Assembly (NCBI GenBank): GCA_947373605.1
Contig: CANBYM010000005.1
Span: 1-54,287, forward strand
Origin: Comamonadaceae bacterium
Lineage (GTDB): Bacteria > Pseudomonadota > Gammaproteobacteria > Burkholderiales > Burkholderiaceae_C
Length of the DNA: 54,287 bases
Direction of reading: 5' to 3'
Both the position numbers and the translations under genes were made by a program. Shown here in pieces: positions 17,193-20,935 of this stretch. The notes below the pieces were generated by a model. The model saw nothing but the letters and a program-made list of their open reading frames with translations, made no database searches and was not told the DNA's origin. Numbering within the stretch: the stretch's first letter is position 1; each line of letters starts with the position of its first letter.

Positions 17193-19109
17193 ATGACAAG
17201 AATGCCCCTTACGCTGAGTTCCGTTCGAGGAAGGTTGCTGCTGGCGGCAGTTCTAATCGAGCTGGTGATGCTGACGCTGTTGGTGTCCAACAGCCTTCGC
17301 CTTGTGAACAAATACATGTTCGAGCAAGTTACGCAGCACGCGCGGCAGATCACGCCGGTGCTGACGGCGGCCATCGTCGCACCACTAGCCCAACGCGACT
17401 ATGCAACGGTGCAATCGGTGCTGGATGAGAGTCTGAGCAACAGCGGCGTCAAATATCTGCTGGTCAGTGATGCGCAGGGGAATCCCGTTGCCAGCAGTGG
17501 TTGGAAGGCCGGTGTTCCATTGCCTACTCCGGATACACAGCTTGACGTAGACAAGCTCAAAGTGGATCCGGTTTACCACGTAAAAAACGAAATTCTGATG
17601 TTTCAACAGCCTATGGGAAACATCCAATTCGGGCTGGACATGTCCAATATTCTGGTTGCCAGACAAGCACTGCTGACCCAGGGTTCCTTGATTGCGATGG
17701 TCGAGTTGCTGATGTCATTTGTGCTGTTGTCCGGCCTGGTGTTCTGGATGACGCGTCATCTTGCTGAACTGACGCGCGCCAGTAACGACGTAGCTTCCGG
17801 CAACCTGACCCCTGCACCAGTGAAAGAGGGGCCCGATGAGTTGGGGCAACTGGGCGTCGCGTTCAATGTCATGTCCCGCACCATCCATGATCGTGTCAGT
17901 GAGCTTACTGAGGCGAAAGACACTGCCGAGGTCGCCAACCGCGCCAAGAGTGAATTCCTTGCCAACATGAGCCATGAGATCCGTACCCCGATGAACGGTA
18001 TTATGGGTATGACTGACCTAGTTCTGGATACCTCGTTGACGGCGCAGCAGCGCACCTACTTGCAGGCCGTTAAGCAGTCTTCGGAATCATTGTTGGTGGT
18101 GATCAACGATATTCTTGACTTCTCGAAAATTGAAGCAGGCAAGCTGGCGATTGAGACGATTCCGTTCTCATTGCACGATACGATCGAACAGATGCTCTTG
18201 CCATTGCGCATGCGTGCCATAGATAAGCAATTACAGTTGGAATTGGAACTGCAAGAAGGTATGCCAACTCACTATGCCGGTGACCCGGGCCGCATACGCC
18301 AGGTGATTACCAACCTGATTGGAAACGCCATCAAATTTACCGAACGTGGCACGGTTCGGCTCTTGATTGAAGCTGATGGAATCTATTCGCCGCTGCTGCA
18401 CTTTCGCGTTCAAGATACGGGAATCGGCATTCCAAAGGACAAGCAAAACCTGATCTTTGAAGCCTTCACCCAGGCGGATAGCTCTACTACACGCAATTTC
18501 GGTGGCACGGGTTTGGGCTTGAGCATCTCCAGCAAACTGGTGCACATGATGGGTGGCTCTATTTGGTTGGAGTCTTTGGCGGGCCAGGGCAGCACCTTTC
18601 ATTTCACCTTGAACCTACGCCCGCTTACAGATCAGCCATCCTTGTCGCCACCAGTGCCGGTGACCAACGCAGCGCCATCGCTATCGGACGCAGGATCTGA
18701 CTCGAAGACTGAATGTGTGCTGGATATACTTCTAGTAGAAGACCACCCGATCAATCAATTGTTGGCCATTAAGTTGCTTGAGCGCGAAGGCCATAAGGTA
18801 ACGCTGGCGGAGAACGGCCAGACCGGGCTACAGGCTGTGATGGAGAAGCAGTTTGATGTGGTGTTTATGGACATGCAAATGCCGGTCATGAATGGACTTG
18901 AAGCAACGCGCTGCATCCGGGAGTTCGAAAAGACTGCAGGTCGCAAGCCGGTCGTCATTATTGCCATCACGGCCAACGCGATGCCCGCGGATCGTGCCGC
19001 GTGCGCCGAGGCCGGCATGGACCGGTTTTTAAGTAAGCCGTTTAAGGCTGTTGATATTCAAGAAATGCTGCAAGGTATTTCTAAGAATACATCGCCAGTT
19101 CAAGCGTAA
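17193..19109 (+). CDS. Membrane hybrid sensor histidine kinase (HAMP-HisKA-HATPase-REC)
   Basis: 638 residues: membrane segment about 14-32, periplasmic sensor domain about 35-165, second membrane segment about 168-188, HAMP about 190-243, HisKA with [12 protein letters not shown] (His near 261), HATPase_c ([18 protein letters not shown]) and a C-terminal REC ([14 protein letters not shown], Asp near 559). It should sense the ligand state of the PhnD-like protein and run an internal phosphorelay. No HPt protein or output regulator lies next to it, so the downstream target is elsewhere. The last ten bases overlap the convergent 63-residue gene. Confidence 0.88.
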
Positions 19110-19291
19110 GTATTGACGTTGTTTCCAGTGCTTGGCGTCGGATTTGAAACTGCGGCTGTTTGTGGTGCGGGGACCGGAGTTTTGGTCGCTGCCGTTCCGT
19201 CGTTATCGCCGTCGGCATCTGCCCCTGCCCCTGCGACTTTGCCTGTAGGCAGTGGGATGTTGACGGCGGTGACGCCGGAGATAGCGGACAT
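19100..19291 (-). CDS. 63-residue acidic, proline-rich small protein (unknown)
   Basis: ATG at 19291 is preceded by AAGGAA at good spacing. The product has no hydrophobic signal; it contains [15 protein letters not shown] in the middle, a Pro/Thr/Ala-rich stretch ([16 protein letters not shown]) and ends GNNVNTYA. The alternating acidic run DADGDND recalls calcium-binding loops (DxDxDG) but is single. I recall similar unannotated small proteins in Comamonadaceae, which supports a real gene, but this was not searched. It diverges from the ATP-grasp pair across a 145-base region with a PmrA/QseB-type box, so it may be co-regulated with it or be its substrate. Confidence 0.6.
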
Positions 19292-19361
19292 GGTATTCCT
19301 TAAGTAGTTATTTGTGAGTTATCGGCTGATCTGCGCGTAACATGACCCAGAGCGCTTTCGC

Positions 19362-19378
19362 CTTAAGCAATCCTTAAG
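19362..19378. promoter_or_regulatory. PmrA/QseB-type box CTTAAG-N5-CTTAAG
   Basis: Two CTTAAG half-sites (19362-19367 and 19373-19378) with 5 bases between, inside a perfect direct repeat CCTTAAGCAA of 11-base period. This matches the direct-repeat box of OmpR-family regulators PmrA/BasR and QseB. The box sits 59 bases upstream of the 110-residue gene and 71 bases from the divergent 63-residue gene. Because CTTAAG is its own complement, it could serve both directions. The cognate regulator is not in the window; KdpE, the only OmpR-family regulator here, recognises a different site. Confidence 0.55.
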
Positions 19379-19436
19379 CAAGTAAGCGATACCGTACGCA
19401 ATAGTGTGCAGATGTACGGAATTGTTGGGAGATGCA

Positions 19437-19769
19437 ATGCACCATATGTACGAAGAATTATTCACGGATGCCGAAATCGGCACAGTGATCGAACAGGCCA
19501 TGATTTATATGTGCGCCTGTCCTGCCCAAGTTGCGACCACGCTGCGCACCGTGCGCGAGTTGCACCGCTACCAGCAGCGGTGCATGGTTTCGCCCAAAGC
19601 CAACAAGACCGTGCATGCGGAAATTGCAAACGCGGCCGTGGCTGCGCACAGCGTGCTACAGGAATGTCTTCTCAAAATCATTGAATTGGAAGGCTGGGAT
19701 CGCAAAACCTTGCAAATGCCCGCTGATTTGCGGGAATTCCAGTTGCGGGAGCTCAACGACGGAGCGTAA
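19437..19769 (+). CDS. Unknown 110-residue protein upstream of the ATP-grasp gene
   Basis: ATG 19437 follows GGGAG; an earlier in-frame start is possible but has no ribosome site. The product appears largely helical, with a CAC pair in MYMCACP-like context (YMCACPAQVATT), His/Tyr/Gln-rich HRYQQRC, and an amphipathic C-terminal half ending REFQLRELNDGA. No signal peptide and no domain is recognised. The stop lies 26 bases before the ATG of the ATP-grasp protein, so they very probably form an operon behind the CTTAAG box. Possible roles: partner, chaperone or substrate-binding subunit of that enzyme. Confidence 0.65.
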   Translation: MHHMYEELFTDAEIGTVIEQAMIYMCACPAQVATTLRTVRELHRYQQRCMVSPKANKTVHAEIANAAVAAHSVLQECLLKIIELEGWDRKTLQMPADLREFQLRELNDGA

Positions 19770-19795
19770 AAACCGTGGTTCTTGAGGAAATAGGT

Positions 19796-20935
19796 ATGGT
19801 TCCCATCAAGGGACTGCCCGCATTGCTGCGCATGGCGCCAACAGCGCTTACAGACATGGTTGCGCAGGTGGCTTCAAGCAACGACGCTGCCAACAGCTAT
19901 TTGCAAATGTTTTATGTAGGGATGGCGCTGGACCAGAGTTCGTTTGCGCTGGAAATGCAGGCAATGGCACTTGAGCATCGTCGCCTCTACCGTATCAAAG
20001 GGCCGGACATTCCCAAGGTCCGCTTGCTCGCCATCATGGGCCCGGGCAATATGCTGGACAACACACCGTTGGATCTCCTCATTGAAAATACCGGAGTCCG
20101 CTTGGATGTGCTGTTCATTCGTCCCGGCGATGACCTGCCCGCCACCCTTCCAGATCATGACATTGCATTCGTGGCCATCGGAGAGGGGGACAAAAGTGCA
20201 GCGCTGCTCAGCCAGGTCGGCCGTATCGTGGACGATTGGCCTCGCCCCGTCCTAAATCCTCCTTCACAAATTCAGCACTGTGCGCGGGATACGTGCTACC
20301 GCTTGTTGAAAGACATCGAGGGTCTATTGGTCCCTCGGACCTGGCGACATCGTGTAGGAGAAGATTGCCGGTTTGAATTTCCGGTCACGATCCGCCCGAT
20401 TGATACGCACGGCGGAAACGGCATGTCCCGTGTCAACGACGCGCTCGAATTGGCACACTATTTCGCAAGCGTTACGGCTGCTGAGTATTACGTTGCGCAG
20501 TACATCGACTACCAATCGCCGGATGGTAAGTTCAGGAAAATAAGGATTGTGCTGATAGAGGGAAAGCCCTACATCTGCCACTTGGCGATTTCGGACAGCT
20601 GGATTGTTCATTACCTCTCCGCAGGCATGGATACCTCCGCGGACAAACGCGAAGAGGAAGCGCAACTCATGCAAACTTTTGACACGGGTTTTGCCTCGAA
20701 GTACCAGCGACCAATTGAAGCCACTGCGCTGCAGTTGGGCTTGGACTATGTAACCATTGACTGCGCCGAGCTAGCAGACGGAAGACTCCTGATCTTTGAA
20801 GTGGACTCGCGAGGCCTGGTGCACGCTCAGGACTCGGTAGAGCTGTATCCCTACAAGCCCCCGGTCATGCAAAAGGCATTTGACGCCTTTGAGGCCATGC
20901 TCATCAGGCGTGTGCAGTCGGCGGCGTCGCTCTGA
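19796..20935 (+). CDS. ATP-grasp-like protein with TPR-like N-terminus
   Basis: 379 residues from ATG 19796 (GAGGAAA upstream; a GTG 21 bases earlier is possible). About residues 10-65 look like a TPR pair (NSYLQMFYVGMALDQSSFAL). A pre-ATP-grasp Rossmann-like part follows (VRLLAIMGPGNMLDNTPLD), then an ATP-grasp core: FPVTIRPIDTHGGNGMSRV (nucleotide loop), AQYIDYQSPDGKFRKIRI and LLIFEVDSRGLVHAQD. In ordinary ATP-grasp ligases the last motif is ExN; here it reads EVD, so Asp replaces the metal-binding Asn. Expected chemistry is carboxylate activation and ligation to an amine, hydroxyl or thiol. The substrate is unknown; the small proteins alongside are candidates. The final 32 bases overlap the convergent reductase gene. 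Confidence 0.65.
   Translation: MVPIKGLPALLRMAPTALTDMVAQVASSNDAANSYLQMFYVGMALDQSSFALEMQAMALEHRRLYRIKGPDIPKVRLLAIMGPGNMLDNTPLDLLIENTGVRLDVLFIRPGDDLPATLPDHDIAFVAIGEGDKSAALLSQVGRIVDDWPRPVLNPPSQIQHCARDTCYRLLKDIEGLLVPRTWRHRVGEDCRFEFPVTIRPIDTHGGNGMSRVNDALELAHYFASVTAAEYYVAQYIDYQSPDGKFRKIRIVLIEGKPYICHLAISDSWIVHYLSAGMDTSADKREEEAQLMQTFDTGFASKYQRPIEATALQLGLDYVTIDCAELADGRLLIFEVDSRGLVHAQDSVELYPYKPPVMQKAFDAFEAMLIRRVQSAASL

Follow-up and report, generated by a model that had tools for sequence, protein, structure and literature searches.

The ATP-grasp ligases with which the enzyme described here is best compared are RimK, the ribosomal protein S6 glutamate ligase, LysX and ArgX, which act with the carrier LysW, and the graspetide synthetases, ligases located near small proteins in the systems outlined in PMC8939145. 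We analysed a stretch of 54,287 nucleotides (hereafter the window) from the Comamonadaceae bacterium assembly GCA_947373605.1 (contig CANBYM010000005.1), in which the gene for a 63-residue acidic protein diverges from genes encoding a 110-residue protein and an ATP-grasp ligase. An earlier note on this DNA had interpreted the three genes as a single small-protein/ATP-grasp system for peptide modification, and sequence inspection located the three open reading frames, an intergenic CTTAAG box and the sequence motifs at the positions that it named. We tentatively propose that the ATP-grasp enzyme, which belongs to an unnamed TPR-plus-ATP-grasp family, acts as a ligase whose likeliest substrates, in the clade of the window enzyme, are the tails of small proteins, and that the 110-residue protein stands apart from this reaction.

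Fold and active site of the ATP-grasp enzyme

The ATP-grasp gene (19796..20935, plus strand) encodes 379 residues if translated from ATG 19796 and 386 residues if translated from an upstream GTG (19775-20935, plus strand); the ATG, which follows a GAGGA ribosome-binding site at 19784..19788 on the same strand, is probably the true start, judging from the sequence. The structural model of the product (pLDDT 90) consists of a short helical N-terminus and a catalytic part that, in comparisons made with VIA-align, most resembles RimK, LysX and ArgX, followed by D-Ala ligases; this comparison hardly covers residues 1-71, and a better structural family may exist beyond those compared. The predicted model places the enzyme in the ATP-grasp superfamily with a RimK/LysX-like fold. 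Its identity to RimK-type structure entries is 11-15%, it exceeds no Pfam or NCBIfam cut-off, and a score of 17.8 bits against the cut-off of 143.4 for rimK_fam (NCBIfam TIGR00768) leaves it outside the RimK family.

The predicted metal-binding residues D322, E335 and D337 (20759..20806, plus strand) are invariant in all 15 rows of an alignment of short relatives (A4), and D322 is present in 68 of 68 rows that carry a letter in a wider alignment. The metal motif of RimK is E-x-N. The window enzyme differs from RimK in having E-x-D, here EVD at residues 335-337, together with an extra helical N-terminus. The earlier note had taken the EVD sequence as a reason to doubt catalysis, and we considered a dead catalytic site; this was rejected, as E-x-D is a family trait, found in 58 of 70 rows, with E-x-N in 6 longer relatives, E-x-A in 3 and a gap in 3. 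Given the RimK/LysX-like fold and the conserved active site, E-x-D provides no grounds for doubting catalysis, and on sequence and model the enzyme is probably an active ligase. The N-terminus had also been described as TPR-like: four helices are indeed predicted between residues 7 and 61, but the likeness is weak in the short form and TPR matches occur in few relatives, each of three TPR models matching one of the 15 short relatives (best E 0.00086).

Members of this ATP-grasp family occur in 51 of 300 genomes of the order. We found no description of a TPR-plus-ATP-grasp family in the titles and abstracts of the literature searched, which is no proof of absence. The genome of the window also encodes a 738-residue paralogue (L092:123-2339) with a long additional N-terminus that appears zinc peptidase-like by eye (HEFGH). 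At two other loci (L028:4386-5987 and L032:4410-5993) a TPR protein of 527-533 residues is encoded directly ahead of the ATP-grasp gene, and the L028 protein additionally matches glycosyltransferase family 9 (22.3 bits, cut-off 22).

Small proteins with a common C-terminal tail

The 63-residue protein (19100..19291, minus strand), whose gene has an AAGGA ribosome-binding site (19297..19301, minus strand) ending 5 bases before the ATG, has an isoelectric point of 4.14 and matches no Pfam family at E up to 1, the EF-hand model included. Compared with LysW, the carrier of LysX and ArgX, it lacks cysteine and ends in Ala, and it is a candidate for the substrate role. Profile matches define an unnamed family, referred to here as type A, with an MSxIS-like start, a DxDGDxD motif (DxDGDxDG in the window) and a C-terminal tail (GNNVNTYA in the window). 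This tail, G-N-x-V/I-N-x-x-A/V, recurs in two further types of small protein: type B, of about 220 residues, and type C, of about 125 residues with an AWQQRQQ motif, which is encoded in divergent pairs. When 668 proteins were ranked by a profile of the last ten residues of type A, types B and C and their relatives came out on top, with one unrelated protein at rank 12. In an earlier run against 661 controls, among them types B and C, 45 controls scored as high as two type C partners. Two type B members (L184 and L207) and the protein of L190 were fetched by the tail pattern, and their tails are therefore no independent support.

Scanning for the tail motif gave 9 matches, FlaG among them, across 618 kb of sequence from ATP-grasp loci and none across 241 kb of control sequence (75 loci that had been fetched for reasons other than the ATP-grasp). 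Among 65 genomes with the ATP-grasp gene, a strict tail pattern at the DNA level had 33 matches, spread over 19 of them, whereas the reversed control had 5; several of the matches inspected fall inside other genes or outside any small open reading frame. Plasmid searches with one type C and one type A protein returned no match. Otherwise unrelated small-protein bodies with the one common tail are seen at L091, L094, L148, L200, L201 and L207. Type C pairs are duplicated in the genome of the window (C54 and C66), where they adjoin a WD40-like gene, and umuDC-like genes are found in the vicinity of type A genes in two families (L111, L112, L113 and L114); these gene names were assigned by eye.

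Distribution of the three genes and neighbours of the enzyme

The three genes represent separately inherited families in a local arrangement, not a conserved system. In tblastn searches of 38 other ATP-grasp loci, many with a flank of 1.5 kb, the 110-residue protein had no match under E 0.39 and the 63-residue protein had none with E <0.7 except at L004, a paralogue locus of the same genome, where the matches (E 0.003 and 0.04) are type B and C proteins. Type B or C or EF-hand proteins near five further ATP-grasp loci are motif-bearing neighbours that we do not count as orthologues of the 63-residue protein. The three-gene cassette of the earlier note was rejected.

At the level of genomes, profile matches to the 63-residue protein (E up to 0.01) are found in 29 of the 300 genomes of the order, including that of the window, and 16 of these also contain the ATP-grasp enzyme (4.9 expected, p 7e-7); with stricter matches (E up to 1e-5) both are present in 10 of 17 (p 7e-5), neither value being corrected for phylogeny. 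The small-protein family also occurs without the enzyme (E 1e-20), in 13 of the 29 genomes and 7 of the 17, an outcome that the earlier note had itself named as a refutation of its proposal. What stands of its proposal that the enzyme acts on the small protein is the excess of co-occurrence and the presence of motif-bearing proteins near the enzyme in its own clade; the fixed trio does not.

The ATP-grasp tree groups the window enzyme in a clade of 20 rows (support 100/98). Genes in the compared loci were called by an open-reading-frame heuristic and many neighbours were named by eye, part of them being run against Pfam. Within 5 kb, or less at short loci, small proteins with an EF-hand-like, DxDGDxD or tail motif are encoded at 6 of 21 clade loci (the window, L027, L028, L094, L148 and L149) and at 1 of 48 others (L091, in the genome of the window, with two such proteins). 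L027 is absent from the tree, apparently owing to a stop in the matched stretch, and was placed in the clade for its closeness to L028; the partial loci L038 and L039 are in neither tree nor counts, the short locus L109 is outside the counts, and the 48 others include 4 plasmid loci. With the window excluded the difference is 5/20 against 1/48 (p 0.007), and with L027 also excluded p is 0.020. At L024, L027 and L028 the ATP-grasp gene has an ApbE-like gene no more than about 5 kb away (Pfam ApbE, E 2e-72 for L027).

Several results weigh against small proteins as substrates. Correction for flank length raises p for the clade enrichment to 0.025, or 0.06 without L027; with the strict tail motif as the only criterion the counts are 2/20 and 1/48 (p 0.20); and all these p values are optimistic because the motifs were defined after several loci had been seen. 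The neighbour at L149 is EF-hand-like with an apparent signal peptide and has no tail motif, and EF-hand proteins of L028 and L027 reach only ranks 17 and 21 of 668 with the tail profile. Counted by family, the small protein occurs in 15 families, 7 of which also have the enzyme, where 5.9 would be expected (20 of about 51 families have it), which is no clear excess. Outside the window just 1 of 34 profile matches to the 63-residue protein lies near the enzyme (G357), although draft contigs may hide some, and three of the 33 matches to the tail DNA pattern have an ATP-grasp gene at about 4 kb or less (2 of 3 in the genome of the window, the window included, and 1 of 2 in G173). Finally, Foldseek alone puts D-Ala ligases first for the enzyme model.

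Candidate reactions

In the reaction that we favour, the enzyme would work like RimK and LysX: it would bind ATP and Mg through R200 and D322/E335/D337, convert a carboxylate to an acyl phosphate and couple this with an amine. Within its clade the likeliest substrates would be tails of small proteins, that of the 63-residue product for instance, and recognition may proceed via the helical N-terminal part of the enzyme. A more specific proposal is that these TPR/RimK-like ligases add an amino acid or another amine to the G-N-x-V/I-N-x-x-A/V tails of several small proteins that are unrelated to one another but have acidic loops of the calcium type, a form of C-terminal tagging; we consider this unlikely, and no description of such a tagging system was found in the literature searched.

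The principal alternative is that the enzyme is a small-molecule amide ligase, joining an amino acid to another amino acid or an amine, and that the protein neighbours within the clade are coincidental; this is a real possibility that falls short of being probable. In other clades the gene next to that of the ATP-grasp enzyme encodes a class V aminotransferase at L093 and L097 and a pyridoxal-dependent decarboxylase at L095 (PF00282, E 2.4e-58), and in plasmid records the ATP-grasp gene has serC as its neighbour in Paraburkholderia and, two genes away, a pyridoxal-dependent decarboxylase in Rhizobium. Such pyridoxal phosphate (PLP) enzymes as neighbours suggest small-molecule substrates and likewise count against a protein substrate, and among the window-clade loci no neighbour family is common to more than three. 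On the other hand, no decarboxylase or serC partner was recognised by eye in the clade listings, and the best VIA-align matches extend proteins, though D-Ala ligases come next.

It is rather improbable that substrates of flagellar export are the targets of the ATP-grasp family, with the MSxIS start of the small proteins serving as an export signal. This start may resemble flagellar N-termini, and the N-termini of type A and most type B proteins are similar; type C starts, however, mostly score lower. Genes for flagellin-domain proteins and FlaG are found beside L095, FlaG near L093 and FliE near L037, but flagellar neighbours were recognised in other clades only. These three loci combine flagellar genes with PLP enzymes near the ATP-grasp gene and may be flagellin-modification islands.

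A dedicated partnership of the 110-residue protein with the enzyme, on one mRNA, is very unlikely. Both genes are on the same strand, 26 bases separating the stop codon from ATG 19796, and the enzyme is present in all three other genomes of the family sample with a strong relative of the 110-residue protein (G061, G109 and G121; E <1e-20), yet on other contigs or 2.5 Mb away. Relatives with E <1e-30 occur in 18 genomes of the order, 23 further genomes with weaker, MerR-type matches being left out, and 5 of these 18 also contain the enzyme (3.1 expected, p 0.17); in the four other than that of the window the two genes lie on separate contigs. The relatives adjoin gatA/gatB, bioA, photolyase-like, BLUF-like and other genes (the window and L119-L135, named by eye), and the protein has a homologue among MerR domains.

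Lastly, the graspetide-like reading of the earlier note, a crosslinking of Asp to Thr or Lys inside the 63-residue protein, is highly improbable: DxDGDxD is conserved in type A relatives and often followed by Ser/Thr, but NCBIfam matches at E up to 1 included no graspetide family, the small-protein family is present without the enzyme in 13 of 29 genomes, and in place of the conserved adjacent precursor gene of graspetide systems tblastn places a relative of the small protein at just one (L004, type B/C) of 38 other ATP-grasp loci.

The 110-residue protein

Sequence comparison relates the 110-residue protein (19437..19769, plus strand), which consists of a domain standing alone, to the C-terminal domain of CxCP-type MerR regulators (hhalign 98.8%, E 5.7e-17, 83 columns). 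Longer MerR regulators contain the same domain, as at L075, which matches Pfam MerR_1 at E 5.6e-14. The pattern Y-x-CACPA-x-V, C, H, H, C is present in 22 of 22 sequences, the window included, and relatives are 36-57% identical in a four-row alignment. The CxCP, C and H residues are shared with the MerR-type domain; in contrast to MerR-type regulators, the protein has no DNA-binding domain and possesses an additional invariant H71 and C77. A search of its own genome with the MerR-domain profile (E up to 0.01) recovered only this gene (E 1e-12) and its copy on C62. Predicted alone, the protein is helical, with a pLDDT of 62 that is too weak for a fold search, and a PDB search with its profile gave nothing usable (best E 0.7). 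According to PMC9758184, class III LitRs are found mainly in Burkholderia, and those of Burkholderia are reported to show a light-dependent spectrum and to have a C-terminus that resembles no known functional domain; the MerR regulators analysed here may belong to this class. We suggest that the product of the 110-residue gene would be a helical domain of the sensor type, unconnected with the ligase reaction.

A PmrA-like box ahead of small-protein genes

The intergenic box, CTTAAGCAATCCTTAAG at 19362-19378, matches CTTAAG-N5-CTTAAG with zero mismatches and reads the same on both strands except for its spacer. From base composition 0.002 exact boxes would be expected per window and 5e-6 in the 145-bp gap; with two mismatches permitted there are 2 matches in the window, a number reached by 23 of 100 shuffles. 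In one other genus, too, the exact box stands ahead of type A genes: in four species (L112, L113, L114 and L218) it starts 68-69 bases before the ATG, as against 87 in the window. It thus accompanies the small-protein gene in two lineages. The remaining 15 genes compared gave one degenerate match (L117) and 14 without a box, and the box has no demonstrable link to the ATP-grasp gene. Genome-wide enrichment was not seen: at one mismatch there are 2 sites in the genome, each appearing on both strands, whereas the control gives 7 per strand. A second exact site in the genome of the window (G000:C16, position 37593; L243/L244) lies upstream of a short open reading frame that by eye starts with MSYIS, and no response regulator was recognised in the 3 kb examined around it. 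PmrA boxes in Salmonella are given as CTTAAG, five bases and NTTAAT in the outline of PMC3973317. The earlier note's designation of a PmrA/QseB-type box holds for the CTTAAG half-site and the five-base spacer, but the final base of the second half is G, not the T of the Salmonella pattern; the box is a candidate site.

Implications

The stand-alone CxCP domain offers a small, tractable version of the MerR sensor domain. That small proteins with nothing else in common carry the same tail suggests a shared fate, which may be tagging, export or breakdown. The ATP-grasp family is widespread and its active site is conserved, and the window enzyme exceeds no family cut-off; for the study of its reaction the tail-bearing small proteins provide a concrete class of candidate substrates.
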